From positions 1 through 64,000 of the forward strand of contig WRKT01000001.1 of assembly GCA_009777995.1 (NCBI GenBank): a stretch of DNA of 64,000 nucleotides, written 5' to 3'. Numbering within the stretch: the first letter of the stretch is position 1; each line of letters opens with the position of its first letter. Positions 39,835-54,166 of the stretch are shown piece after piece. The notes beneath the pieces are model-generated. The model made no database searches. It saw only the letters and a program-made list of their open reading frames with translations, and was not told the origin of the DNA. The DNA comes from Treponema sp. (GTDB lineage Bacteria; Spirochaetota; Spirochaetia; Treponematales; Breznakiellaceae). A program made the translations under genes and the position numbers.

Positions 39835-41622
39835 ATGAAACAACTAATGACAGGCAATGAAGCCATTGCCCGAGGAGCATGGGAAGCAGGCGTCTTTTTC
39901 GCTTCTGCATACCCCGGCACACCCAGTACGGAGATATTGCAAAATCTAACCACTTATAAAGAAATCGATGCAGAGTGGGCTCCGAATGAAAAGGTTGCAA
40001 TGGAAGCTGCAATTGGTGCTTCCATCGGCGGCGCAAGAGCCATGGCTTCAATGAAGCATGTAGGTGTGAATGTTGCATCCGATCCTTTACATACTTTTTC
40101 TTATACCGGAGTTAACGGCGGAATGGTGCTTGTCGGTGCCGATGAGCCGGGTCAACATTCAAGTCAAAACGAGCAGGATAACCGCTGGGTAGCAAAAATG
40201 GCGAAGATTCCGATGCTTGAGCCATCTGACAGTCAGGAATGTAAAGACATGATGGGCATTGGCTTTGAGATTAGCGAAAAATATGACACTCCGGTATTTT
40301 TTCGTGTAACAACACGCATTTGTCATTCAAAAAGTATAGTCGAGTGCGGAGACAGGACTGAAGTAGGTGTCAAGGAATATGTAAAGCAAACAGAAAAGTA
40401 TGTCACTGTTCCCTTATTTGCACGTAAACGCAGGGTAATCGTTGAAAACCGGATGGAAGAGCTGCTTAAGTACTCCGAAAGTACTCCTCTAAATCGTATA
40501 GAGAAAGGGAATGGGGAAATAGGCGTTATAGCTTGCGGGGTCTGTTATCAATATGCAAAAGAAATTTTTGGAGATGAAGCTTCATACCTAAAGTTGGGCT
40601 TTACTTCTCCATTGCCGAAACAGAAAATTAAAGAATTCTGTGAGCAAGTAAAGACCGTGTATGTTATTGAAGAGAATGACCCGTATATAGAGGAAACAGT
40701 TTTAATGCTGGGCTTTGAGGCAAAGCTTAAGGGAAAGAATGTACTGCCCAAGTACGGTGAACTTATGCCTGATGTACTGCGTAAGTCAATCTATGGTAAG
40801 AATAATAAAACTATTGACTATGATCGTAGTAAAATTTTACCTCGTCCACCTACGCTTTGTGCAGGTTGTCCACATAGGGGCTTTTTCTATGATATTGGCC
40901 GTAGAAAGAATATTGTAATTACAGGAGACATTGGTTGCTATTCTTTAGGCTATGCCGAGCCATACAATGCAATGGATTCCAATGTCTGCATGGGTGCAGC
41001 TTTCTCCGCAGCCCATGGAACCCAAAAAATATTTTCCGGTCCAGGTAAAAATGAAAAGCGTGTAGTCGGCGTTATGGGAGACTCAACTTTCTTTCATACA
41101 GGTATGAACTCTTTACTTGAAGTGGTCTACAATAATTCTAAGACCATCTGTGTAATCCTGGATAATGCCATAACCGGAATGACAGGCCATCAAAATACTC
41201 CGGGGAATGGTCTTAATGCCAGAGGTGAACCTGCCAATGTTACGTCCATAGAGGCTGTAGTTCGTGCGCTTGGAATTAAGAATGTGACCACTGTTGACCC
41301 AAATGATCTTACAAAAATGAAAGAAGCAATGGATTGGGCGCTTTCCCTGGATGAGCCGTCTGTTATAATTACTCGCTTTCCCTGTGTTCTAAAAAGAATT
41401 ACCAAAGAAGAGAAAGTTGAGTTTAATAATCCCTTCACCTCAAAAAGTAAGGTGAACACAGAGAAATGTGTCGGCTGTAAATTGTGTTTAAGGTCCGGCT
41501 GCCCTGCCTTATCCTTTGAAACTGCATCGAAAAAAGCTAAGATTGCATCTGTTCAATGTGTAGGTTGTACCGTTTGTAATCAGATCTGCCCAAAGCAGGC
41601 AATCGAAAAGGAGGGTAAATAA
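39835..41622 (+). CDS. iorA: Indolepyruvate ferredoxin oxidoreductase, alpha subunit
   Basis: 595 residues. Oxidatively decarboxylates arylpyruvates (indole-, phenyl-, hydroxyphenylpyruvate) to aryl-acetyl-CoA, reducing ferredoxin. It starts with the pyrimidine-binding domain (MTGNEAIARGAWEAG, AYPGTPSTEI), has the TPP pyrophosphate motif (GDSTFFHTGMNSLL ... DN), and ends with a two-cluster ferredoxin domain CVGCKLC / CVGCTVC. Typical length. AGGAG precedes the ATG. It needs iorB, encoded just downstream. The CoA ester can be passed to Ptb and Buk of the same operon for ATP. Confidence 0.95.
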   Translation: MKQLMTGNEAIARGAWEAGVFFASAYPGTPSTEILQNLTTYKEIDAEWAPNEKVAMEAAIGASIGGARAMASMKHVGVNVASDPLHTFSYTGVNGGMVLVGADEPGQHSSQNEQDNRWVAKMAKIPMLEPSDSQECKDMMGIGFEISEKYDTPVFFRVTTRICHSKSIVECGDRTEVGVKEYVKQTEKYVTVPLFARKRRVIVENRMEELLKYSESTPLNRIEKGNGEIGVIACGVCYQYAKEIFGDEASYLKLGFTSPLPKQKIKEFCEQVKTVYVIEENDPYIEETVLMLGFEAKLKGKNVLPKYGELMPDVLRKSIYGKNNKTIDYDRSKILPRPPTLCAGCPHRGFFYDIGRRKNIVITGDIGCYSLGYAEPYNAMDSNVCMGAAFSAAHGTQKIFSGPGKNEKRVVGVMGDSTFFHTGMNSLLEVVYNNSKTICVILDNAITGMTGHQNTPGNGLNARGEPANVTSIEAVVRALGIKNVTTVDPNDLTKMKEAMDWALSLDEPSVIITRFPCVLKRITKEEKVEFNNPFTSKSKVNTEKCVGCKLCLRSGCPALSFETASKKAKIASVQCVGCTVCNQICPKQAIEKEGK

Positions 41623-41623
41623 A

Positions 41624-42196
41624 ATGACAAAGAATATTCTTCTTGTAGGTGTTGGAGGACAGGGTACGATCTTGGCAAGTAAGATCCTGACCATTGGTCT
41701 AATGGAAGCAGGCTTTGATGTAAAGATGAGTGAGATTCACGGAATGAGTCAGAGGGGAGGCTCAGTATCTTCTCAGGTACGTTATGGTGAAAAAGTATTT
41801 TCTCCCGTGATTGAGCTAGGTGGTGCAGATATACTTGTAAGCTTTGAGCAAATGGAAGCGCTGCGCTGGCTGGAATATCTAAAGCCCGACGGGAAACTCA
41901 TTCTTAACGATTATCGAATTAACCCTATGCCTGTTATCTCAGGGAAGGCTGAATATCCGGATGGGTTGATTAAGGAAATTGAATCGAAGATACCCTCTTC
42001 CATATTCGATGCAGCTGGAGAAGCAATAAAACTTGGGGATGCAAGGGTAATGAATATCATACTCCTTGGTGCAACCATCAAGCTCATGGGTCTTGAAAGT
42101 ATCGACTGGGATAATATAATAAAGCAGAATGTAAAGTCGGATTTTATTGATATTAATATAAAAGCACTGCATCGCGGCAGAGAGTTAGTGGGTTAG
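41624..42196 (+). CDS. iorB: Indolepyruvate ferredoxin oxidoreductase, beta subunit
   Basis: 190 residues, the gamma-domain (CoA-binding side) subunit of the IOR complex. N-terminus KNILLVGVGGQGTILASKIL and the EIHGMSQRGGSVSSQVRYG stretch are hallmarks. ATG directly follows the iorA stop (TAAAATG). Works with IorA as a heterodimer pair. Confidence 0.95.
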   Translation: MTKNILLVGVGGQGTILASKILTIGLMEAGFDVKMSEIHGMSQRGGSVSSQVRYGEKVFSPVIELGGADILVSFEQMEALRWLEYLKPDGKLILNDYRINPMPVISGKAEYPDGLIKEIESKIPSSIFDAAGEAIKLGDARVMNIILLGATIKLMGLESIDWDNIIKQNVKSDFIDINIKALHRGRELVG

Positions 42197-42209
42197 GGTT
42201 ACCGAAATT

Positions 42210-42869
42210 ATGAAATGGCAGAAGTTCTTCTTTCGCTTGTTTTTCTATGCCCTGGGCTTAATGTTCATAGCCTTTGGAACTGCCATTTCCATAAACTCTG
42301 ACCTTGGAGTAACCCCGGTAGGCTCACTGCCCTATGTGGTATCACAGGTCAGCGGAATCGACCTTGGTGTATGTGTTACATTAGTTCTTTCATCATATAT
42401 TCTAATTCAGATTTTTATTTTACGAAAAGAGTTTAAATGGATTAATATAACCCAGATTCTCTTTTCAACTATGTTTGGATTTTTTGTTGATTTTGCAAGA
42501 ATTGTAGTTGGTGATTTTGTAATCCCCGGTTATCCCGGAAGGCTCCTTATGATTGCAATTGCAACTATACTTGTAGCTATAGGTGTAGTCATATATGCGA
42601 ATACTAAACTCGTTAATATGCCTCCTGAGGGGCTGGCAAATGCACTGGTACAGAAATTCCCTAAACGAGCATTTTATCAGATGAAAATCGTGGTGGACAG
42701 CACAGGTGTATTAATTGCAATAGCGATATCGCTTCTGGTGTTTGGCAGGCTATATGGTGTACGAGAAGGTACAATCATTAGCGCGATCCTTGTTGGGCAG
42801 GTAATTAAATTTATTCAAAAACCTATAAAGAACATAATAGAAAAAATATGCTTTAAGGAGGCTGCATAA
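42210..42869 (+). CDS. YczE/YitT-like integral membrane protein
   Basis: 219 residues, five or six transmembrane helices. N-terminal LFFYALGLMFIAFGTAISINSDLGVTPVGSLPYVVS is the signature of the YczE (DUF6198) group. Function of the family is unsettled; transport of small organic compounds has been suggested for relatives. It lies between iorB and buk with 13-bp and 1-bp (overlapping) junctions, so it might move the acid product or the precursor. That is inference. Confidence 0.8.
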   Translation: MKWQKFFFRLFFYALGLMFIAFGTAISINSDLGVTPVGSLPYVVSQVSGIDLGVCVTLVLSSYILIQIFILRKEFKWINITQILFSTMFGFFVDFARIVVGDFVIPGYPGRLLMIAIATILVAIGVVIYANTKLVNMPPEGLANALVQKFPKRAFYQMKIVVDSTGVLIAIAISLLVFGRLYGVREGTIISAILVGQVIKFIQKPIKNIIEKICFKEAA

Positions 42870-43939
42870 TGAGCTTTAAAATCCTTGCGATTAATCCCGG
42901 TTCAACGTCAACTAAAATTGCCGTTTATAATGATGAAAACCCTGCATTTGTTAAGTCAATAGAACACCCGATTGATGAACTTTCCAAATTTAATTCTCTT
43001 TTTGAGCAGTTTGATATACGGATGAAGTATGTTCTGCAAGCAATAGAAGAAAATGGTGTTAAACCTATAGAGCTTTCAGCTGTAGTGGGACGCGGCGGAT
43101 TACTTTCACCATTGAAACCGGGCGGATATTTAGTGAATCAGGCCATGGTAGATGCATTGGGCTCCCCCGACACAAGAGCACATGAATCAAATCTGGGGGC
43201 ACCTATAGCCTATAGCATTGCACGGCCCCTTGGGATTCCTGCATATATTTACGATGCTGTTGGGTCTGATGAACTAAACGATGTTGCAAGAATTACCGGC
43301 ATCCCTGAAATTATAAGAGAAAGCTTCTGTCATGTATTAAATACAAAGGCAACTTCTCGTAAGGTCGCAGAAAAGCTTGGCAGCACGTATGAATCAATGA
43401 ATTTCATTGTTGCACATATTGGAGGTGGCATATCAATTTCTGCACATGAAAAGGGACGAATAATCGACGTAATAACAGCAGATGCAGGGCCATTTTCGCC
43501 CGAGCGAAGCGGCAGTGTGCCCCTTGGGTATATCGTAGACATATGTTATAGCGGTGAATATAAAACAAAAAAAGAACTAATGACTAAGCTTAATAAAAAC
43601 AGTGGTCTTAAAGGTCTCCTTGGAACAAACGACTGTCGAGAGATCGAACGTCGCATTGCAAGTCGCGATAAAAAAGCCAAAGCAGTCTATGATGCTCAAG
43701 CCTATCAGATTGCCAAGGGAATAGGGGAAATGACACCGCCCTTATGCGGCATAGTCGACGCAGTTATTCTTACAGGTGGAATGGCTCACTCTGAGTATAT
43801 CACGAAAGAAGTGACCAGGCTTGTAGGATACCTTGGCAAAGTCGTTGTAATGCCGGGAGAGAATGAAATGGAAGCACTCTCTCTGGGTGCATTGAGGATT
43901 CTTAAGGGAGAGGAAGGCTATAGCGAGTATGGAGTTTAA
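42869..43939 (+). CDS. buk: Butyrate kinase-type acyl kinase
   Basis: 356 residues, ASKHA fold: ILAINPGSTSTKIAVY at the N-terminus, VVGRGGLLSPLKPGGY, IVAHIGGGISISAHEKGRIID and ILTGGMAHSEY. It converts an acyl phosphate to acid plus ATP. The gene overlaps the preceding stop by one base and has AAGGAGG upstream. In this operon its substrate is likely the product of Ptb acting on IOR-made acyl-CoAs (phenylacetyl-, indoleacetyl- or branched-chain), not necessarily butyryl-phosphate. Confidence 0.94.
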   Translation: MSFKILAINPGSTSTKIAVYNDENPAFVKSIEHPIDELSKFNSLFEQFDIRMKYVLQAIEENGVKPIELSAVVGRGGLLSPLKPGGYLVNQAMVDALGSPDTRAHESNLGAPIAYSIARPLGIPAYIYDAVGSDELNDVARITGIPEIIRESFCHVLNTKATSRKVAEKLGSTYESMNFIVAHIGGGISISAHEKGRIIDVITADAGPFSPERSGSVPLGYIVDICYSGEYKTKKELMTKLNKNSGLKGLLGTNDCREIERRIASRDKKAKAVYDAQAYQIAKGIGEMTPPLCGIVDAVILTGGMAHSEYITKEVTRLVGYLGKVVVMPGENEMEALSLGALRILKGEEGYSEYGV

Positions 43940-43944
43940 ACCCC

Positions 43945-45270
43945 CTAGACCGCTCCCTCAACCACCTTCATCACACGCATCAACGTCTCTTCCCCAAGAC
44001 GCTTTCCGATCATTGTGCAAGGAATCGGGAGGCCCTCTTCGGTCTTGCCGATGGGCAGAGTCATGCTCGGAAAGCCTGTTGCTGCTGCAATGCCTAAACC
44101 GGAATAAGCCATATAAAGCAGGTCAACGCCGTTATCATCAAAATACTTATCGAGGGTAACTTTTGCTTCTTCCCTTGCGGCGATGCCTTTAACGTATTCA
44201 TCAGCATTTTTCCAATCTTCCTGTACATTGTTAGCCGCAACGAGGTTACCCTGTCCGTATTTCAGGGCAATATCTGCATGTTCTTCGTTATACTTGATAA
44301 TTGCAGACAGATCCTTTGGGGTTGAAGGGTTTTTCCTATAGGCATCGAGGTATGAGTTTATTGCATACCTGAACTCGTATTTCATAATCGGGAATACAAA
44401 GTTATCTTCTATATTGTGATCCGGCATATCAACAAGGATAATCCCAAGGTCCTTTAGTTTCTCAATCATCGCCTCATTTCCCTTTAACCATTCGCTGTTG
44501 TCTTTTTTATCCTTACGGCCCTGCCTGCATATACCCACTTTAACAGCGGCTTTGCCCGAAAGATCGTACTGCTTCCCTGCAAGGACCCCAAGGACTGCCG
44601 CCGCATCTTCCACTGTGCGGGCCATGGGCCCCAGGGTATCAAGGGTGAAGGAAATCGGGAGCACGCCCTTCTTGCTGATTAGGCCGTCAGTGGGCTTTAT
44701 TCCAACGACACCGCAGCGCTGGGCCGGGGAGATGATCGAACCGTAGGTCTCTGAGCCTATTGCGGCAACGCAAAGACCGAGTGCCACTGCTACGGCAGAG
44801 CCGGTCGAAGAGCCTGAAGCATCAGCTTCAGGATGGGTTGGATGCATGGTCTGCCCCCCGCGGGAGCTATATCCGTTTGGCATTGGAGAAGTCTGCCAGT
44901 CTGACATATAGTTAGCAAACTCGGTTAGATTGGCCTTTCCAAGGATCACAGCCCCTGCTTCCCTTAAAAGGCGGGCTGCCTCGGCATCTTCCTTCGCAAT
45001 ATTTTCAGACAGGGCAACGGAGCCTGCGCTTGTGCGCATTTTATCACCTGTACTTATATTATCTTTAATTAAAATAGGCACTCCGTATAGAGCTCCCTTC
45101 TTTTCGGGAGACGAGTCAAGTGCCTTTGCAATATCGGCAGCCTCCGGGTTTAATTCGATCACTGCATTAAAGCGCTTGTTTTCCTCGATTTTTGCCAAGT
45201 CACCTGAAACAAGATCCTGCGACCTTAACTCACCCTTCCTGACCTTTTCTGCCATATCAATGATACTCAT
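43945..45270 (-). CDS. Amidase-signature family hydrolase
   Basis: 441 residues. Ser-cisSer-Lys triad: K69 in LIKDN, the cis-serine S154 in SGSSTGS and nucleophile S178 in ETYGSIISPA, where the usual DTGGS is altered to ETYGS. Related to amidases and GatA, but no gatB/gatC lies nearby, so it is more likely a free amidase hydrolysing small amides or N-acyl compounds. AAGGAGA precedes the ATG. Convergent with buk (5 bp apart) and divergent from the transketolase operon. Confidence 0.88.
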   Translation of the reverse strand: MSIIDMAEKVRKGELRSQDLVSGDLAKIEENKRFNAVIELNPEAADIAKALDSSPEKKGALYGVPILIKDNISTGDKMRTSAGSVALSENIAKEDAEAARLLREAGAVILGKANLTEFANYMSDWQTSPMPNGYSSRGGQTMHPTHPEADASGSSTGSAVAVALGLCVAAIGSETYGSIISPAQRCGVVGIKPTDGLISKKGVLPISFTLDTLGPMARTVEDAAAVLGVLAGKQYDLSGKAAVKVGICRQGRKDKKDNSEWLKGNEAMIEKLKDLGIILVDMPDHNIEDNFVFPIMKYEFRYAINSYLDAYRKNPSTPKDLSAIIKYNEEHADIALKYGQGNLVAANNVQEDWKNADEYVKGIAAREEAKVTLDKYFDDNGVDLLYMAYSGLGIAAATGFPSMTLPIGKTEEGLPIPCTMIGKRLGEETLMRVMKVVEGAV

Positions 45271-45341: not shown

Positions 45342-46172
45342 ATGTCACTTATGGCTGATGAAAAGCAAAATTTAATAAAAATTGCGCAGCAGATACGCCT
45401 TTTGGTAATTGACGTAATGGCCTGGTCGGGCGGCGCGCATGTGGGTGGATCACTTAGCATCATAGATATCCTTACGATCCTTTATTTTAAGTATTTGAAC
45501 ATCAAACCTGAAGAGCCGCAGTGGGACGGCAGAGACCGCTTTATTCTCTCGAAAGGGCATGCAGCAGCAGGTTATATTCCTGTGCTGGCAAAGCGGGGCT
45601 TTTTCCCCGAGGAAACGCTGAAAAGTTTTAACCGTTTCGGTTCTCCCTTTGCGATGCACCCGGATGGGAATAAGGTACTTGGCTGCGATGCCTCAGCGGG
45701 ATCCCTCGGGCACGGCCTTTCAATGGCTGTGGGGCTTGGGCTTGGCGCAAAAGCAAAGAACGAAGATTGGAAGACAGTCTGCCTCATGGGAGACGGGGAG
45801 TGCTGTGAGGGCAGCGTATGGGAATCTGCAATGTCTGCATCCCATTTCAAACTGGGGAACGTCATCGGAATAGTAGACCGCAACAGACTTATGATTGACG
45901 GCACTACAGAGGATGTAATGGCCTTGGAGCCCTTTGCAGCAAAGTGGCGTGCCTTCGGTTGGGAAGTCATCGAAATTAACGGCCATGACTTTGACGAGTT
46001 AAACACGGCGATGGAGAAGGCCTGGGCTGCAAAAGATAAGCCGGTCTTAATTCTTGCAAATACCGTTAAGGGTAAGGGCGTTGACTTCATGGAAAACAAT
46101 GTTGTATGGCATTATGCTTCAGGTGACTCGGCAGTCTGCGAGAAAGCCAAAGCTTCAATCATGAAAGGTTAA
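45342..46172 (+). CDS. Transketolase, N-terminal subunit
   Basis: 276 residues: the pyrophosphate-binding half of a split transketolase. It has HVGGSLSIIDILTILYF, the histidine of SKGHAAAGY, and the TPP motif GDGECCEGSVWESAMSASHFKLGN. It pairs with the next gene to move two-carbon ketol units. Split transketolases of this sort occur both in sugar metabolism and in secondary pathways. First gene of a seven-gene operon whose other members act on aldehydes and amines. Confidence 0.93.
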   Translation: MSLMADEKQNLIKIAQQIRLLVIDVMAWSGGAHVGGSLSIIDILTILYFKYLNIKPEEPQWDGRDRFILSKGHAAAGYIPVLAKRGFFPEETLKSFNRFGSPFAMHPDGNKVLGCDASAGSLGHGLSMAVGLGLGAKAKNEDWKTVCLMGDGECCEGSVWESAMSASHFKLGNVIGIVDRNRLMIDGTTEDVMALEPFAAKWRAFGWEVIEINGHDFDELNTAMEKAWAAKDKPVLILANTVKGKGVDFMENNVVWHYASGDSAVCEKAKASIMKG

Positions 46173-46183
46173 GGAGGAGTACT

Positions 46184-47197
46184 ATGTCTATTATTACAGG
46201 GACAAACTGGAATGCTTATGATGCTGCAACCATGACAGCGAGGGAAATATACGGGCGTACTCTTGCCGAGCTTGGAAATCATAATAAAAAAATCGTAGGA
46301 CTCACTGCAGACCTTGAAAATACAACTTCGATAGTCCATTTCAAAAAAGCGCACCCCGAGAGATTTTTCAATGTAGGAATAGCTGAGCAGAATATGATGG
46401 GAGTTGCCGCGGGGCTTGCAAAGGCGGGCCTTATTCCCTTCGCTTCGACTATGGCTGTTTTCGCCTGTCTTAGGGCAGGTGAGCAGGTACGCACGGACAT
46501 CGCATATCAGAATCTGCCGGTAAAGATTATTGCCACCCACTCAGGCATCTCCTTCGGGCATGCAGGGACTACGCATCATTGCACCGAGGACTTCGCAATC
46601 ATGCGCTCGATTGCAAATATGACGGTAATTGCTCCTGCCGACGGCATTGAAACATCGAAGGCTGTTCAGGCATGTGTTGATATTCCGGGACCTGTCTATA
46701 TACGAATCGGCCGCGGATTTGAACCGCCCTGCTACGAGTCTGATAATTATGCTTTTGAAGTAGGGAAGGCTGTTACAATGCGCGAGGGTACTGACCTTAC
46801 CATTATTTGCTGCGGTATCGCGGTGCTTCAATCCCTTAATGCCGCGAAGACCCTTGCGGAAAACGATAAGCTTTCAGTGCGGGTTATCAATATGCATACG
46901 ATTAAGCCGATTGATAAAGATGCTATTCTTAAGGCAGTAAATGATACACGCCGTATTCTGACAATTGAAGAGCATAATATTGAAGGCGGGCTTGGTGATG
47001 CTGTTGCATCTGTTATTGCAGAATCCGGGAAGGGATGTGTTTTCCAAAAGCACGGAATCAATGACTTATTTTCTACCATAGGATATGCCGAAGACCTTTA
47101 TGCACATTACGGCCTTGATTCAAACGGCATTATAGAGAGAGTAAGAAAGATGATGGGGCTCGAATTCGAAGCTGACGAAAATTGGGACGATGATTAG
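46184..47197 (+). CDS. Transketolase, C-terminal subunit
   Basis: 337 residues: the pyrimidine-binding half with the catalytic glutamate in GIAEQNMMGVAAGLA, preceded by GLTADLENTTS, and the C-terminal domain with IEEHNIEGGLGDAV. Only 11 bp after the N-subunit gene with AAGGAGGA. Needs its partner for activity. Confidence 0.93.
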   Translation: MSIITGTNWNAYDAATMTAREIYGRTLAELGNHNKKIVGLTADLENTTSIVHFKKAHPERFFNVGIAEQNMMGVAAGLAKAGLIPFASTMAVFACLRAGEQVRTDIAYQNLPVKIIATHSGISFGHAGTTHHCTEDFAIMRSIANMTVIAPADGIETSKAVQACVDIPGPVYIRIGRGFEPPCYESDNYAFEVGKAVTMREGTDLTIICCGIAVLQSLNAAKTLAENDKLSVRVINMHTIKPIDKDAILKAVNDTRRILTIEEHNIEGGLGDAVASVIAESGKGCVFQKHGINDLFSTIGYAEDLYAHYGLDSNGIIERVRKMMGLEFEADENWDDD

Positions 47198-47206
47198 GAG
47201 GAGACC

Positions 47207-47995
47207 ATGACCGCTACCGACAAAGATCTGATGACGGCGAAGCTCTTCTTTAATGCAGCTTTCCCCGTCATGCAGGTGCTTTTAGACGATGATCCGAAAA
47301 TAAAAGCTAAGTTTTCCGCTTTTCGCGCAACAGTACAGTTTGGAGCTCTTGATGATTCACAGCCCCTATTCTGTCATTTGATTTTCGATAACGGGAAGGT
47401 CAAGATTGTGCAGGGAAAGGCAGAGAAATATGATCTTGCTCTTACCTTTTCTGCAATCGCAAAAATGAATGCACTTTTAAAAGGCGGTCTTGCGCTTCCT
47501 TCCATTAAAGGCAAATTGGGACTCCTTCCGAATGTGCTTGCATTGCTTATGGGTTTAAAGATAATGACAAAACCCAATAATAAGCTAAAGGACTTGGCCG
47601 AAAAGTCCCTTAAAGTAAAGTGCAGCCTTTATATGGTTACCCGTGCCCTAAGCCAGTACAATAAACAGGGTGACCCGAGCATGCAGGAATTCTGCCTTAG
47701 ACAGCCTGACCGTATTTATCAATTCCGAGTTGAGCAGGACGGCAATCCTGCACACATCGCAGCATACTTAAGAATAAAAGCAGGTAAGTCAAAGTCAGGC
47801 CACGGCGTTTATGAACGCCGCTCTCCCTTTGTGCTTTTCCGTTTTACATCGGTGGATGGTGCATTAAAGATTCTCGATAAGGAAGTTGAGTTTGTCGAAG
47901 GCGTTGAGAAAGGTTTTGTCGAGACACTTGGAAGCCCCGAATATGCCATGTATTTAAATGATTATATGGCGGTGCTCCAGGGAATGCTCACTTAA
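47207..47995 (+). CDS. SCP2-like lipid-binding-type protein, copy A
   Basis: 262 residues, no signal peptide. The segment FCHLIFDNGKVKIVQGKAEKYDLALTF then IAKMNALLKGG has the pattern of the sterol-carrier-protein-2 fold, where a hydrophobic tunnel binds lipids. It is recognisably paralogous to the gene at 50633-51424: both have the alternating strand-strand pattern followed by K-[MF]-N-x(2)-[LI]. Function unknown. AGGAGG precedes the ATG. Its presence in an aldehyde/alcohol/amine operon hints at a hydrophobic substrate. Confidence 0.65.
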   Translation: MTATDKDLMTAKLFFNAAFPVMQVLLDDDPKIKAKFSAFRATVQFGALDDSQPLFCHLIFDNGKVKIVQGKAEKYDLALTFSAIAKMNALLKGGLALPSIKGKLGLLPNVLALLMGLKIMTKPNNKLKDLAEKSLKVKCSLYMVTRALSQYNKQGDPSMQEFCLRQPDRIYQFRVEQDGNPAHIAAYLRIKAGKSKSGHGVYERRSPFVLFRFTSVDGALKILDKEVEFVEGVEKGFVETLGSPEYAMYLNDYMAVLQGMLT

Positions 47996-48032
47996 AATTA
48001 CATCCGGAAAGAACTAACCAAGGGAGCTATTT

Positions 48033-49244
48033 ATGAAGGCAGTTTACTTTGAAAAGGATATCCCGCGCATACTCGCAAGCAAGGCGGCAGCCAAGTGCTG
48101 CCCCGGCTTATTATACACGGGGATTAACGCAGTTAAATATAATAAAAAATTGCCTGACCCGCCTCTCCCTGCAGATGACTGGGTTAGGGTAAGGAATATT
48201 GCCTGCGGTCTTTGCGGAACAGATATAAGCTTCTTTAAGGCAACAACAAGTACAAACTCGGCCTTTGAACCGATACCGGGTTCTAAACGAACCTTCCTCG
48301 GACATGAAAATGTAGGCATTGTTACCGAAGTTGGAAGCAGTGTAAAAGAGTTTAAAACAGGCGATAGAGTTACCATCCGCGCCTATATGTCAGGCTGTGA
48401 CACAAAAGGCATTAAAGAACGCTGTCACTTCTGCGAAGAGGGGAACTATAATTTCTGTATTAATTACGGTGCAAAGGGCCCCCATGGAATGCTCGATACC
48501 GGCGGGGGCTGGAGCGACAGCTTCATTTACCCTGCAAGGGGCTTAGCGCGCATTTACGATGAGTTAAATGATGAGCAGGCTGTAATGGTAGAGCCCTCCT
48601 GTGTGTCCATTCATGCGGCCCTCTGTGTCCCGCCCGAAAAGGGAGACAAGATTCTCGTTATGGGCTGCGGCACAATCGGTCTTGGCCTTGTGCAGGCAAT
48701 AAAGATTCTGGAAAAGGACTGCGAAGTTTGGGTAATGGAGAGGGTTAAAACAAAGCAGGAATTTGCAAAGAAGCTTGGAGCTGACCATGTGCTTCAAGGA
48801 AATCCATACGAACAGGCATCAAAGGCAACAGGCGGAAGTGAAGTATTCACCGGTATGAGCAATAATAAGTATTTCTTTGGCGGCTTTGATAAGGTATATG
48901 ACTGTATTGGCGGTAATTGGGCAAATCATACAGGGCTCCGCCTTCTAAGGGCAAAGGGTACCTTTATCAAAATTGGCCACCACATGAATGCTGTTGCATT
49001 TGACGAGAGCCCGATTTGGTGGCAGGAACTGCGTCTTATCGGAATCAATGCACACGGCATGGAAACCTGGAAAGGAAAGAAGCTCTACACCTTTGATCTT
49101 GCACAGGAATGGATAAGAGACGGCATTTATAAAACCGAAGGCTTTGTAACACATTATTTTAAGCTCGACGATTATAAACAGGCAATGAGGCTTGCAATGG
49201 AAAACCCGCCCGAGGTTATAAAGATAGTCATTGATTGTAAATAG
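48033..49244 (+). CDS. Zinc-dependent medium-chain alcohol dehydrogenase
   Basis: 403 residues. Catalytic-zinc motifs ACGLCGTD and FLGHENVG; a structural-zinc loop of unusual form with CDTKGIKERCHFCEEGNYNFC; and the Rossmann motif VMGCGTIGLG. It is longer than most MDR enzymes, with an extra ~40-residue insert around GSEVFTGMSNNKYFFGG. Oxidises or reduces an alcohol/aldehyde with NAD(P). The next gene encodes an aldehyde dehydrogenase, so they may work in series. Preceded by GGGAG. Confidence 0.9.
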   Translation: MKAVYFEKDIPRILASKAAAKCCPGLLYTGINAVKYNKKLPDPPLPADDWVRVRNIACGLCGTDISFFKATTSTNSAFEPIPGSKRTFLGHENVGIVTEVGSSVKEFKTGDRVTIRAYMSGCDTKGIKERCHFCEEGNYNFCINYGAKGPHGMLDTGGGWSDSFIYPARGLARIYDELNDEQAVMVEPSCVSIHAALCVPPEKGDKILVMGCGTIGLGLVQAIKILEKDCEVWVMERVKTKQEFAKKLGADHVLQGNPYEQASKATGGSEVFTGMSNNKYFFGGFDKVYDCIGGNWANHTGLRLLRAKGTFIKIGHHMNAVAFDESPIWWQELRLIGINAHGMETWKGKKLYTFDLAQEWIRDGIYKTEGFVTHYFKLDDYKQAMRLAMENPPEVIKIVIDCK

Positions 49245-49252
49245 AGGACAGA

Positions 49253-50617
49253 ATGAGTATACACGATATTATTTTACGACAGCGCGAATTCTATGACACA
49301 GGTGCAACACGTTCCCATGCATTTCGCATTAATGCTCTTAACTCTCTTCGTGATGCCTTAAATAAAAATGAAGATTTGATCTTCAGTGCATTAAAAAAAG
49401 ACCTTGGCAAGCACCCGATGGAAACCTATATGTGCGAGAGCGGCATGGTGCTCGACGAGATACGTTATCACCTAAAACATTTAAAAACCTGGATGCGCGC
49501 CAAAAAGGTTAAAACACCAATGGCCCAATTCCACGCAAAGAGTTTTATATCGCCTGAGCCCTACGGTATCGCACTTATTATGACACCCTGGAACTATCCT
49601 GTTCAATTAAGCCTTTCTCCCCTTGTCGGTGCGATTTCTGCAGGGAACTGTGTTGTTCTTAAACCTTCAGCTTATGCACCAAATACGAGCAGTGCGATAG
49701 CGAAGATCATTGGAGAAGCCTTTAGACCTGAGCATATTGCCGTAATCGAAGGCGGCCGCGAGGAAAATCAAGAACTCCTAAAACAGACCTTCGATTATAT
49801 TTTCTTTACAGGCGGAATAGCAGTAGGTAAGACAGTGATGGAAGCTGCATCCAAAAACCTAACCCCCATTACCTTAGAGCTTGGCGGAAAGAGTCCTGTT
49901 ATCGTAGATTCAACATCGGATCTTAAACTTGCAGCAAAGCGCATTGCTTTCGGAAAGGTGCTTAATGCGGGGCAGACCTGTGTCGGGCCTGATTACCTAT
50001 TCATCGAAGAGAGTAAGCTCGAGAAATTTATTGATGAGTTTAAGAATGCTTTAAATGAGTTTTTCCCCGGAGGGGATATGTCAAGTATGCCTTTAATGGT
50101 AAACGAGAAGCATTTTAGACGTGTTACAGGTTTAATTCAGGGTCAAAAGATTGCAATTGGAGGGAACTCGGATTCAAAGCGTCTTTTTATCGAGCCGACT
50201 GTACTCATCGATGTTCCGCCCGGTTCCCCCATAATGAACGAAGAAATTTTCGGGCCTGTCCTTCCTGTTATGACCTATAAAAAGATCGATGAATGTATCA
50301 ACTTTATTCGCTCCCGGCCAAAACCTCTCGCACTATATCTCTTTACCTCGGATAAGTCGACTGAACAGCTCGTCCTAAATAACTGCTCCTTCGGCGGCGG
50401 CTGTATAAACGACACTGTTATACACCTGGCAACCCCGTATATGGGCTTCGGCGGAGTTGGCGAGTCCGGGATGGGAGGTTATCACGGGAAGAGGAGCTTT
50501 GACACCTTTACCCATTATCGAAGTATAGTCCGAAAATCAACCTGGATAGACTTAAAGATGCGTTATCATCCATATACTGAAGGAAATCTAAAGATGATAC
50601 GCATGTTCTTAAAATAA
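49253..50617 (+). CDS. Aldehyde dehydrogenase, ALDH3 (fatty/aromatic aldehyde) type
   Basis: 454 residues, matching the short ALDH3 class. PEPYGIALIMTPWNYPVQLSLSPLVGAI, E209 in ELGGKSP and catalytic C243 in NAGQTCVGPDY are visible. ALDH3 enzymes commonly act on long-chain or aromatic aldehydes. The C-terminus THYRSIVRKSTWIDLKMRYHPYT is typical of this class. It follows the alcohol dehydrogenase by 8 bp. Confidence 0.93.
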   Translation: MSIHDIILRQREFYDTGATRSHAFRINALNSLRDALNKNEDLIFSALKKDLGKHPMETYMCESGMVLDEIRYHLKHLKTWMRAKKVKTPMAQFHAKSFISPEPYGIALIMTPWNYPVQLSLSPLVGAISAGNCVVLKPSAYAPNTSSAIAKIIGEAFRPEHIAVIEGGREENQELLKQTFDYIFFTGGIAVGKTVMEAASKNLTPITLELGGKSPVIVDSTSDLKLAAKRIAFGKVLNAGQTCVGPDYLFIEESKLEKFIDEFKNALNEFFPGGDMSSMPLMVNEKHFRRVTGLIQGQKIAIGGNSDSKRLFIEPTVLIDVPPGSPIMNEEIFGPVLPVMTYKKIDECINFIRSRPKPLALYLFTSDKSTEQLVLNNCSFGGGCINDTVIHLATPYMGFGGVGESGMGGYHGKRSFDTFTHYRSIVRKSTWIDLKMRYHPYTEGNLKMIRMFLK

Positions 50618-50632
50618 GACTAATCTTTTTAG

Positions 50633-51424
50633 TTGCAATATCGGGAATTAAGGAATATCATTAATGCTATGAAAGATTCAAGAACAATGGCCTATGTAAA
50701 CATGCATGGCATATTGGGCGCTCTTGCAGACCTTTGTAATTTTTCGCCCGAGGCAAAAGAACTTGCTACCGGAAAACCTACAGCGATTTTATTTGCTGTT
50801 AATGACGGCCCTTCGGCACTTTTAAGCTTTAATGCCGGGGCGTGCTCTTTTGAAGAAGGGAGCGGCCCCTGCGATATACGGCTTCCATTTTCAAGCTGCG
50901 AAAAGTTTAATGGCATGATAGACGGAACCGTAACGCCCTTCCCGAGCAAGGGTTTTACGAGGCTAAAGTTTCTAACCAAAAATTTTGTAGGCTTAACAAA
51001 AATACTTGAGACTTATTTAAAGGCTAATCCCGATGATCTTTCTAATAACAATTTCTTTGATGCAAGTACCACCATCATGTTTCATTTGATTGCCCGCGCA
51101 GTATCTCAAATCGGTAATAATGATAAAATAGGACGTTTTTCTGCATCGAATATTGTTAACGGAACCGTAGTACTTTCCATAGGCGGCGGGCCGAAAGCTG
51201 CCATTACAGTTAAAGATCATATTTTAACCACCACTCGTAAGATACCTGATCGTTATGAAGCGATAATGGAGTTTGCAGACATGCACCTTGCCCGAAACCT
51301 TTTTGAAGGGAAGGTAAGCACCCTCGCCTGTGTCGGAACCGGTCTAATTACAATGCGCGGAAACCTTAGCATGCTGGATAATGTTAATCGTATTCTCGAT
51401 AGGGTAGCTATATATCTGGGTTAG
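50633..51424 (+). CDS. SCP2-like lipid-binding-type protein, copy B
   Basis: 263 residues if started at TTG 50633, which has no SD; ATG 50669 is an in-frame alternative (251 residues) with a distant AAGGA. The pattern AILFAVNDGPSALLSFNAGACSFEEG ... IRLPFSSCEKFNGMIDG parallels copy A at 47207. No enzyme motif. I infer an SCP2-like binding fold with low certainty; a carrier or regulatory partner for the operon's enzymes is possible. Confidence 0.62.
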   Translation: MQYRELRNIINAMKDSRTMAYVNMHGILGALADLCNFSPEAKELATGKPTAILFAVNDGPSALLSFNAGACSFEEGSGPCDIRLPFSSCEKFNGMIDGTVTPFPSKGFTRLKFLTKNFVGLTKILETYLKANPDDLSNNNFFDASTTIMFHLIARAVSQIGNNDKIGRFSASNIVNGTVVLSIGGGPKAAITVKDHILTTTRKIPDRYEAIMEFADMHLARNLFEGKVSTLACVGTGLITMRGNLSMLDNVNRILDRVAIYLG

Positions 51425-51439
51425 TTTTAGGAGAAGTAT

Positions 51440-52693
51440 ATGGGATTTCCAATTAACAGTTATAAAAAAAGCGCAGAAGAGTATAACCGTGCTTTAAAAG
51501 TTATACCTTCAGGAATATATGGTCATCTCGGGCCTGCTGAAGGCTGCTTTGTGCCTGTTTCTGCATTTCCCTTTTTCTCGGAACGTGCAAAGGGCACCTA
51601 TTTCTGGGATGTGGATGGCAACCGTTTTATCGATTATATGTGTGCCTATGGGCCAAACGTACTTGGTTATAATGATGAGGAAGTGGACGAGGCAGCAGCA
51701 AGACAAAGCAAGCTTGGAGATTGCGTTACTTCCCCTTCTACAAGGATGATTGACTTTGCCGAAGTTTTAGTCGATACAGTTGCAAGTGCGGACTGGGCTT
51801 TTTTTGCAAAGAACGGAGGAGATGTTACTACTTTAGCAATTCTTACTGCGAGGGCCTTTACCCGCCGTAAAAAAATTGTCTTTTTTAAGCGTTATTATCA
51901 TGGAGTTGCACCTTGGGCTCAAAAAATAGATTATCCCGGTATTATCGAAGAGGAAGTGGTAAATAATATCTATGTACCATGGAACGATTATGAAAAGCTT
52001 GCTCAAGTCTTTGAAGAAAATAAGGGAGAAATTGCCGCAGTAATTTCCCAGCCGTACCAGCATGGTAATTTTACAGACAACGAGTTGCCTCTGGAAGGCT
52101 TTTGGCAAAAGGTGAGGAAGCTCTGTACTGAAAAGGAAGCGATGCTTATCATAGATGATGTAAGGGCAGGTTTCAGGCTTGACCTGGCAGGAAGTGATCA
52201 TTTCTTTGGCTTTGAGGCAGACCTTATCTGCTTCTGTAAGGCAATTGCAAACGGCTATAATGTCAGTGCCCTTTGCGGCAAGGAGTTCCTTCGCAATACA
52301 GTAAGCAGTATCTTTTATACGGGGAGTTATTGGCTTTCGGCAGTCCCCTTCGCAGCAGGCATTGCCACTATCGAAAAAATGAAGCGCTTGGACCTTCCAA
52401 AGCTCCTAAACGATAAGGGGATAATGCTAAGGGACGGGCTGCTCTCTAGTGCAAAGAAACACGGATATGATCTTCGCTTTACAGGGATGCCTGCCCTATT
52501 CTATCTGCGCATTGCAGGGGATAGTAATGGCCCCGATGATTCCCTTATGATTCATCAGAGATGGATTGCCGAAATGGTTAAACGGGGGGTTTATTTTACG
52601 AACCACCATAATCATTTCCTTAATTCAGCAATGAGCGAACAGGACATAAAAACTACGATCGAAATAGCCGATGAGGCCTTTGCAGTTTTATAG
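51440..52693 (+). CDS. Class III PLP aminotransferase (GSA-aminomutase-like)
   Basis: 417 residues. Typical class III (HemL/ornithine-type) sequence: YFWDVDGNRFIDYMCAYGPNVLGY, IIDDVRAGFRL, and the PLP lysine K267 in FCKAIANGYN. It lacks HemL-specific context (no hem genes near), so it is more likely an omega-aminotransferase for a ketone or aldehyde made by the operon. Last gene of the seven-gene unit, GGAGAA upstream. Confidence 0.9.
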   Translation: MGFPINSYKKSAEEYNRALKVIPSGIYGHLGPAEGCFVPVSAFPFFSERAKGTYFWDVDGNRFIDYMCAYGPNVLGYNDEEVDEAAARQSKLGDCVTSPSTRMIDFAEVLVDTVASADWAFFAKNGGDVTTLAILTARAFTRRKKIVFFKRYYHGVAPWAQKIDYPGIIEEEVVNNIYVPWNDYEKLAQVFEENKGEIAAVISQPYQHGNFTDNELPLEGFWQKVRKLCTEKEAMLIIDDVRAGFRLDLAGSDHFFGFEADLICFCKAIANGYNVSALCGKEFLRNTVSSIFYTGSYWLSAVPFAAGIATIEKMKRLDLPKLLNDKGIMLRDGLLSSAKKHGYDLRFTGMPALFYLRIAGDSNGPDDSLMIHQRWIAEMVKRGVYFTNHHNHFLNSAMSEQDIKTTIEIADEAFAVL

Positions 52694-52744: not shown

Positions 52745-52779
52745 AGTATAACACACTTTTTGTGATGCGCTTTTTACTT

Positions 52780-52853
<74 letters not shown>

Positions 52854-52855
52854 TA

Positions 52856-54166
52856 ATGGCCAAGCGATTTGACCCGGCAGAACTAACAAATTTCGCTCGT
52901 GAATATGGTTTCCACTATGATTCGATTGATGGACCGGGGTTAGTTGGAGATGTTATATCGGAAATGCAAATGGGTCTTGAGGGTAAACCATCAAGTCTTG
53001 CCATGATCCCCGCCTATATTAGACCTGTTTCAAAAATAACCCCCTTAAAATCGGTAATTGCCCTTGATGCAGGGGGAACCAATCTTAGAGCGGCACTTAT
53101 CAGATTCGATAAAAGCGGCAAGGCCATAATCGAGGATAGTCGTAAGACCCACATGCCCGGAACAAGGGGCCCTCTTAGTGCAGACGCCTTTTTTGACGAA
53201 TTTGCCGCCCTGACAGGACCGCTCATCACAGAAGCCAAGGACGAAATCGAAGGGATTGGCATTTGCTTTTCCTATCCGATGGAAATAAATAAGGATGCCG
53301 ACGGAATAGCCCTTGCCTTCAGCAAGGAAGTTGAAGCAAATGAAGTAATCGGCAAAGCCATCGGTGCAGGCCTTAGAGATGCCCTTGCAAGGCAAAGTAT
53401 CAAAGCCCCCGGCAGGATAATCCTGCTTAACGATACAGCCGCAACCCTGCTGGCGGGGCAGGGAGCTTCTAAAGAAACTACAACCATAGGCTTCATCCTT
53501 GGGACAGGCTTTAATACAGCTTACCCTGAGAGTAAAATTCCCAAAATCGGCTTTAATTCACCCGAAAACCCTCAGATTGTAGTCTGTGAATCCGGCAATT
53601 TTGCACATAAGTACATGGGAATCCTTGACAAGGAGTTCGATAGCACTACCAAGTCCCCCGGGAAATATACCCTTGAAAAAACCGTATCAGGTGCATATCT
53701 TGGCCCCTTAACCCTGCATATATTAAGACAGGCAAACAAAGACGGCCTTTTAAACTTTGAAAGGGCCAAAGAGTTTTTCTCTATGTCCCATTTGGATACA
53801 AAGGACTTAAATGATTTTCTCCATGACCCCTATTCACAAAAGGGCCCTGTCGGCAGTTATTTTAATAAAGAGGAAAGGGATGCAATAGATACCCTTTGCT
53901 TTCTTTCTTCAATAATAACCGAAAGAGGAGCATTTCTTTCTGCAGGGGTTCTTGCGGCCACAGTTTATAGAACCGGAAGAAAGTCTATAATAGCAGTAGA
54001 AGGCTCTACATTCATGCTTTTTAAGGGGATGAGAAGGGCTCTTGAGTCACATCTTCGACTACTTTCAAGGCCGGTAACCCCGACATCTTATGCGTATGAT
54101 TATTCGATAGTCCCTGTAGAACAGGCCTCCCTTCTCGGTGCTGCAGTCGCTGCTCTGACAGCCTAG
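52856..54166 (+). CDS. hk: Hexokinase
   Basis: 436 residues, ASKHA fold. Phosphate-1 motif VIALDAGGTNLRAALIRF, sugar-binding region with LNDTAATLLAGQ, and GFILGTGFNTAY. Resembles Treponema-type hexokinases, which provide glucose phosphorylation without a PTS. The start is ATG 52856 (MAKRFDPAEL): no nearby alternative exists and the tRNA ends two bases upstream, so there is no room for a Shine-Dalgarno sequence. The mRNA would be leaderless after tRNA 3' processing. Confidence 0.92.
   Translation: MAKRFDPAELTNFAREYGFHYDSIDGPGLVGDVISEMQMGLEGKPSSLAMIPAYIRPVSKITPLKSVIALDAGGTNLRAALIRFDKSGKAIIEDSRKTHMPGTRGPLSADAFFDEFAALTGPLITEAKDEIEGIGICFSYPMEINKDADGIALAFSKEVEANEVIGKAIGAGLRDALARQSIKAPGRIILLNDTAATLLAGQGASKETTTIGFILGTGFNTAYPESKIPKIGFNSPENPQIVVCESGNFAHKYMGILDKEFDSTTKSPGKYTLEKTVSGAYLGPLTLHILRQANKDGLLNFERAKEFFSMSHLDTKDLNDFLHDPYSQKGPVGSYFNKEERDAIDTLCFLSSIITERGAFLSAGVLAATVYRTGRKSIIAVEGSTFMLFKGMRRALESHLRLLSRPVTPTSYAYDYSIVPVEQASLLGAAVAALTA

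Follow-up and report, generated by a model that had tools for sequence, protein, structure and literature searches.

A conserved gene unit of split transketolase, class III aminotransferase and two tandem SCP2-fold proteins in Treponema and gut Clostridia, with a possible role in the turnover of sphingoid-type aminodiols

Background

Within the 64,000-nucleotide stretch of Treponema sp. DNA analysed here (positions 1 to 64,000 of contig WRKT01000001.1, hereafter the window), a run of seven genes at 45342-52693 contains a conserved unit of five: the two halves of a split transketolase (TKN and TKC), a class III pyridoxal phosphate (PLP) aminotransferase (AT3), and two proteins, SCPa and SCPb, with predicted tandem SCP2 folds. 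We tentatively propose, with a confidence that stops a little short of even, that this unit interconverts a hydrophobic aldehyde and a sphingoid-type 2-amino-1,3-diol by way of a 1,3-dihydroxy-2-ketone, and that breakdown is the likelier direction in the window genome. The aldehyde chain would probably be fatty and is possibly aromatic. Sphingoid bases are built by serine palmitoyltransferase (SPT) and cleaved by sphingosine-1-phosphate (S1P) lyase, and the unit, if its role is confirmed, would be a natural means of making or degrading sphingosine-like compounds without the standard enzyme. If true, the proposal would also point to a hidden branch of sphingolipid exchange among diet, host, Bacteroidetes, Clostridia or termite-gut spirochaetes, suggest a natural setting for relatives of the aminotransferase FumI, and offer ready-made enzymes for chiral 2-amino-1,3-diols. 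The components are of known kinds and their combination appears undescribed, no description of it having been found in the open-access papers searched.

Results and Discussion

Conservation and distribution of the unit

The sequence studied belongs to a Treponema-like genome of 2.63 Mb in 59 contigs that is 87% complete. Treponema metagenome-assembled genomes (MAGs) stand closest to it in the named collection; from their isolate names, we take these to be of termite-gut origin. The seven open reading frames (ORFs) at 45342-52693 are intact and complete, lie in the same direction on the forward strand and encode proteins of 276, 337, 262, 403, 454, 263 and 417 amino acids, with gaps of 11, 9, 37, 8, 15 and 15 nt between them. 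A first-pass annotation, made from the sequence alone, had placed these genes at the same coordinates, which is correct, and had read all seven as a single pathway. That scope was too wide, as the conserved unit consists of five genes (SCPb, AT3, TKN, TKC and SCPa).

A scan for SCPb relatives, limited to one genome per species, found 80 loci, which belong to gut Clostridia and to Treponema-type MAGs. The order SCPb-AT3-TKN-TKC-SCPa, in one orientation and without either of the two dehydrogenase genes of the window, is found in 34 of the 59 clostridial loci; the remainder include loci with SCPb-AT3 alone, several of which are truncated by contig ends. In Treponema the two halves of the unit, SCPb-AT3 and TKN-TKC-SCPa, can be separate or divergent, and all five core genes are consecutive in one more distant relative (L040). 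SCPb directly precedes AT3 in nearly all loci, and SCPa comes after TKC in both Treponema and Clostridia. For the family to which the window genome belongs, co-occurrence was examined in 200 genomes, the specific TKN being called by an identity gap that separates matches of at least 52% from those of at most 47%. SCPb was present in 27 of these genomes, the specific TKN in 22 and both in 20 (Fisher p 1.2e-19). Since the core recurs in Treponema and in Clostridia, the clustering is not due to chance.

The two other genes of the run are of more restricted occurrence. ADH (48033..49244, +) encodes a 403-amino-acid zinc dehydrogenase of the medium-chain dehydrogenase/reductase superfamily (PF08240, PF00107), of the ketose-reductase or threonine-dehydrogenase type. 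Its orthologue is present in 5 of the 200 family genomes, all of them carriers of the unit, and stands directly after SCPa in the other four as well. ALDH (49253..50617, +; 454 amino acids; Pfam Aldedh) has an orthologue in one of the 200, the window genome itself. ADH is thus an occasional addition to the unit and ALDH a one-off addition. The class 3 identity that the first-pass annotation gave to the latter agrees with its nearest PDB entries, which are class 3 or fatty aldehyde dehydrogenases with E values of about 1e-120 (class 3 enzyme 1ad3, 5e-121; human fatty aldehyde dehydrogenase 4qgk, 3e-120; also 3sza, about 1e-120).

Seven clostridial loci (L065, L068, L077, L079, L082, L091 and L106, including Oscillibacter valericigenes An860 and An890) carry SCPb-AT3 in genomes where a search with the window SCPa as query found no SCPa, and AT3 with SCPb may have a role that is independent of the split transketolase. 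About 18 clostridial loci (L067, L069-L075, L078, L080, L092, L093, L099, L100 and others) have a conserved divergent pair on the opposite strand just upstream of SCPb, which encodes a tandem class II aldolase protein of 406 amino acids and a second class III aminotransferase of about 500 amino acids with 27-30% identity to AT3. This pair may represent a parallel aldol route to a related substrate. Other clostridial neighbours, read from sequence as a peptidase, an FGGY kinase, PNPase and a stomatin-like protein, vary between loci and were set aside.

The split transketolase

TKN (45342..46172, +; 276 amino acids; PF00456 Transketolase_N, E 2e-48) corresponds to the N-terminal, diphosphate (PP) half of a transketolase, and TKC (46184..47197, +; 337 amino acids; PF02779 Transket_pyr and PF02780 Transketolase_C) to the C-terminal half with the Pyr and C domains. 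The closest PDB chains are those of the Carboxydothermus split transketolase (6yak for TKN, E 2e-77; 6yaj for TKC, E 5e-82). DXS and pyruvate dehydrogenase were rejected as identities, their scores being far under the cut-offs. In a residue table of 43 family members, in human transketolase numbering, the thiamine pyrophosphate-binding and catalytic residues His37, 77, 110 and 258, Asp155, Asn185 and Glu366 are invariant across both halves. The acceptor site, by contrast, is altered, with Asp424 (D469 in Escherichia coli) replaced by Ala in 43 of 43 members. In the window TKC this residue is Ala127, preceded by His126 in place of Glu, and in the family as a whole the preceding residue is His or Gln. 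The enzyme of Carboxydothermus hydrogenoformans resembles TKN and TKC in its separate N and C chains and in its catalytic and cofactor residues, but has Glu423-Asp424 where the 43 window-type relatives have His/Gln-Ala. The Glu-Asp pair is likewise retained in a separate full-length transketolase encoded elsewhere in the window genome. The altered acceptor site and the presence of this second enzyme largely answer an objection foreseen in the first-pass annotation, namely that the split enzyme might be a sugar-phosphate transketolase of central metabolism. Of the phosphate-site residues, the window enzyme keeps Arg318, Ser345 (as Thr), His416 and Arg474; His416 and Arg474 are invariant in the family, while Arg318 is Ala in 34 of the 43.

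The effect of changes at this acceptor position has been studied in E. coli transketolase. There, D469A lifts the ratio of propionaldehyde to glycolaldehyde activity from 0.04 to 0.20, both linear aliphatic aldehydes and aromatic ones are substrates of D469 variants (PMC3657141), and D469T makes room for non-polar aldehydes (PMC5073344). The Carboxydothermus split enzyme uses phenylacetaldehyde and cyclohexanecarboxaldehyde in vitro (PMC7661550). From the residues conserved and lost, we infer that one substrate of the split transketolase is hydrophobic and not a sugar and that the other, in Treponema at least, is a sugar phosphate.

An independent pairing of a transketolase-like enzyme with an aminotransferase was seen on a Methylomagnum ishizawai plasmid (L162, 7056-12668), where a split DXS/transketolase-like pair adjoins a class III aminotransferase, a short-chain dehydrogenase/reductase (SDR), a NeuB-like synthase and a HAD phosphatase within a glycan and acyltransferase cluster.

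The aminotransferase

AT3 (51440..52693, +; 417 amino acids; PF00202 Aminotran_3) has its Schiff-base lysine, Lys267, in the motif FCKAIANGY. The closest solved structure is FumI (PDB 6hbs, E 4e-92), the best glutamate-1-semialdehyde aminomutase (GSAM) reaching 1e-48, and the protein lies below the HemL equivalog threshold (TIGR00713, 213.5 bits against a cut-off of 527.3). In a maximum likelihood tree of 44 rows, in which some long branches were flagged, the aminotransferases of the operon form a clade of their own (100/100), whose sister group consists of FumI and the plasmid-encoded FumI relatives (uniting branch 96/86). AT3 is therefore not inside the FumI-containing clade of this tree; both groups together are split from GSAM by a long 100/100 branch. 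Thirty near-invariant positions of the operon enzymes recur in the FumI clade, and GSAM has other residues there.

FumI is the aminopentol aminotransferase of Sphingopyxis (6hbs, 6hbv), and its known substrate, hydrolysed fumonisin B1, is a sphingoid-like, long-chain 2-amino-3-hydroxy compound. FumI deaminates this compound at C2 to give the 2-ketone (PMC2933618), and three FumI relatives with 61-74% identity also degrade it (PMC9858248). AT3 is likewise a class III PLP aminotransferase and shares signature residues with FumI, but differs in its sister-clade position, in its identity of about 40% to FumI-clade members, and in being accompanied by an SCP2 protein and a transketolase, both of which are missing from the FumI-like plasmid loci examined. 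The gene clusters around the proteobacterial FumI relatives look catabolic and include transporters, sugar-acid kinases, class II aldolases and either amidases or formamidases.

FumI-like genes were observed on plasmids of Variovorax, Novosphingobium, Pseudosulfitobacter, Pseudoroseomonas, Shinella and Agrobacterium (L134-L139, L160), together with ABC transporters, N,N-dimethylformamidase-like or amidase genes, a class II aldolase and a four-carbon sugar-acid kinase. Judged by their gene content, these clusters look like an undescribed pathway of amino-alcohol catabolism.

The tandem SCP2-fold proteins

SCPa (47207..47995, +; 262 amino acids) matches Pfam PF02036 (SCP2) with E 0.018 and 15.8 bits, below the gathering cut-off of 21.3. 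SCPb (50633..51424, +; 263 amino acids as listed) has no match in Pfam or NCBIfam, and its profile found none among PDB sequences, although the fold search did. Since many homologues start at MKD, the SCPb start is probably the ATG at 50669 rather than the listed TTG at 50633. SCPa and SCPb are paralogous over their full length (hhalign E 9e-13). Their AlphaFold models, built from 38 sequences for one and 36 for the other, have pLDDT values of 92 for SCPb and 88 for SCPa, and predict a helix-strand-helix unit that occurs twice per chain. In structure comparisons both models match SCP2 domains best (Z up to 12.7 for SCPa and 11.9 for SCPb), chiefly in the C-terminal half, and some of these domains were solved with a fatty acid or another ligand. 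The N-terminal half of SCPa matches the N-terminal domains of MycE and SpnK (Z 7-8). The guess from sequence that the operon encodes two SCP2-like proteins is thereby upheld. The same fold is predicted as in known SCP2 domains (human MFE-2 SCP2L, 1ikt; mosquito SCP2 with C16 fatty acid, 1pz4; the C-terminal domain of the SdsA1 alkylsulfatase; UbiJ) at Z 8 to 12.7. SCPa and SCPb are unlike these in having two units per chain, in falling under the Pfam SCP2 cut-off and in occurring as two paralogues per operon. By gene order SCPb goes with AT3 and SCPa with the transketolase, and each may be a physical partner of its enzyme.

Proposed reaction and its direction

The proposal joins the observed gene content, conservation, co-occurrence, family placement and residue changes, and the predicted folds, to an inferred substrate class, direction and physical pairing of SCP2-fold proteins with enzymes. 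AT3, with SCPb as its partner, would exchange the C2 amino group of an aminodiol for the keto group of a 1,3-dihydroxy-2-ketone, and the split transketolase, with SCPa as its partner, would make or break the C2-C3 bond, passing a two-carbon ketol to or from a small acceptor or donor. In Treponema this small molecule could be a sugar phosphate, because the phosphate-site residues are kept. A possible role for SCPb and SCPa would be that of lipid-binding partners which present the greasy substrate to AT3 and to the transketolase, respectively. The first-pass annotation had arrived at the same reaction logic, aldehyde plus two-carbon ketol to dihydroxyketone to aminodiol, and this part of it is supported by the FumI-sister position of AT3, the family-wide change of Asp to Ala and the predicted SCP2 folds; its biosynthetic direction, and a fatty chain in preference to an aromatic one, gained no such support, and its seven-gene scope was too wide.

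Read as breakdown, the order would be aminodiol to ketodiol to aldehyde, after which ADH and the class 3 ALDH would yield the alcohol or the acid. Class 3 enzymes oxidise aldehydes and do not supply them, and in animals one acts after S1P lyase. Breakdown is favoured in the window genome because these two dehydrogenases can dispose of the aldehyde, and by analogy the deamination carried out by FumI and the catabolic-looking loci of its relatives favour it over synthesis as well. SPT synthesis and breakdown by S1P lyase and fatty aldehyde dehydrogenase would handle the same class of compound, but there the carbon-bond step belongs to a PLP synthase or lyase and here to a transketolase. Biocatalytic routes to 2-amino-1,3-diols that combine E. 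coli D469 transketolase variants, D469A among them, with transaminases use this two-step chemistry and carry a change at this very residue, although these are laboratory constructs acting on short or aromatic aldehydes, whereas the genes described here are natural and conserved. The wider claim, that gut spirochaetes and Clostridia possess a natural counterpart of this engineered cascade, a transketolase/aminotransferase route independent of SPT and S1P lyase that makes or breaks sphingoid-like 2-amino-1,3-diols with a dedicated tandem-SCP2 carrier for each enzyme, is slightly less probable to us than the proposal itself.

Several points weigh against this explanation. Some SCP2-fold proteins have no known lipid ligand, the substrates of FumI-clade relatives may be amino alcohols that are not lipids, the clostridial core has neither ADH nor ALDH, and the unit is tied to no uptake system, ceramidase or deacylase. 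A link to neutral ceramidase (PF04734) was sought in the 200 family genomes, and 3 of the 13 with a match are carriers (p 0.41, no enrichment). Stereochemistry is a further difficulty, given that natural sphinganine is 2S,3R and safingol 2S,3S. Wild-type E. coli transketolase forms mainly 3S ketodiols from propionaldehyde (58% enantiomeric excess S), and changes at residue 469 alter or reverse this outcome (PMC3657141). By analogy with the 3S preference of that enzyme, set against the 2S,3R configuration of sphinganine, the compound handled by the unit may not be ordinary sphinganine.

That the same chemistry runs forwards, from a fatty aldehyde to a sphingoid-like 2-amino-1,3-diol without SPT, as the first-pass annotation had suggested, seems to us unlikely, though it is the strongest of the alternatives. 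It draws on the same FumI kinship, Asp424 to Ala change and SCP2 folds, and the clostridial core stands alone, free of transporters and hydrolases, as a biosynthetic core might. However, neither in the cluster nor among genes that recur beside it was there a recognisable acyl-CoA or acyl-ACP reductase as a source of the aldehyde, or a recognisable N-acyl or head-group transferase; the class 3 ALDH would drain the aldehyde, and the known direction of FumI is deamination. The carriers do lack SPT above cut-off, and an anti-correlation of the unit with SPT had been suggested as a check. The SPT models (NF047599, NF047600) exceed their cut-offs in none of the 200 family genomes and in none of the 30 carriers tested, so there is no contrast to be drawn, and the absence is uninformative because the non-carriers, and with them the whole group, also lack SPT. 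In the window genome, at 87% completeness, the models score far under cut-off, and the sole alpha-oxoamine synthase scores as a glycine C-acetyltransferase (509.5 against a cut-off of 460), its gene adjoining an SDR read as threonine dehydrogenase.

Somewhat less probable again is a non-lipid substrate, either an aromatic aminodiol or an amino-polyol or sugar, with the SCP2-fold proteins as accessory or regulatory subunits. Such a substrate would suit the class II aldolases, four-carbon sugar-acid kinases and peptide-type transporters that stand beside FumI-like genes elsewhere, the distant transketolase and class III aminotransferase pair in the Methylomagnum glycan cluster, the retention in Treponema of the phosphate site (Arg318, Thr/Ser345, His416 and Arg474), and the acceptance of aromatic aldehydes by D469 variants. 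Yet the change of Asp424 to Ala removes a polar residue from the acceptor site, Arg318 is itself replaced in most of the family (Ala in 34/43), AT3 and the Methylomagnum-type enzyme share only 30% identity and fall in different clades, and a soluble sugar is hard to square with two tandem-SCP2 proteins. Lastly, the two enzymes could both serve central metabolism, one as an ordinary second transketolase and the other as a GSAM-type enzyme, with no functional link behind their clustering. This would fit the commonness of both families and their top NCBIfam names (transketolase and glutamate-1-semialdehyde aminomutase), but is very improbable in view of the full-length transketolase elsewhere in the genome, the altered acceptor site, the hemL and transketolase equivalog cut-offs that are not reached, the strong co-occurrence, and a gene order conserved across two phyla.

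Neighbouring genes

An amidase-signature gene (43945..45270, -; PF01425, E 7e-68) lies divergently, 71 nt upstream of TKN. Its product could serve to deacylate an N-acylated aminodiol, an idea to which conservation gives no support: the gene was rejected as a member of the unit, having no close homologue in the 199 other family genomes. Beyond the operon, a tRNA-Arg(TCT) at 52779-52854 runs into the 5' end of a mechanically called hexokinase ORF (52826-54166; PF00349/PF03727), the true start of which is probably downstream of 52826. Hexokinases of this type are uncommon in bacteria. A genomic island at the tRNA-Arg was considered and set aside, as no empty site could be demonstrated and the hexokinase neighbourhoods of two genomes of the same genus show no synteny to the window. 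Further upstream, at 39835-43939, consecutive genes whose translations were read by eye likely encode indolepyruvate ferredoxin oxidoreductase subunits (595 and 190 amino acids), a membrane protein and a butyrate-kinase-like protein, a row that suggests fermentation of amino acids with ATP gained from an acyl-phosphate.

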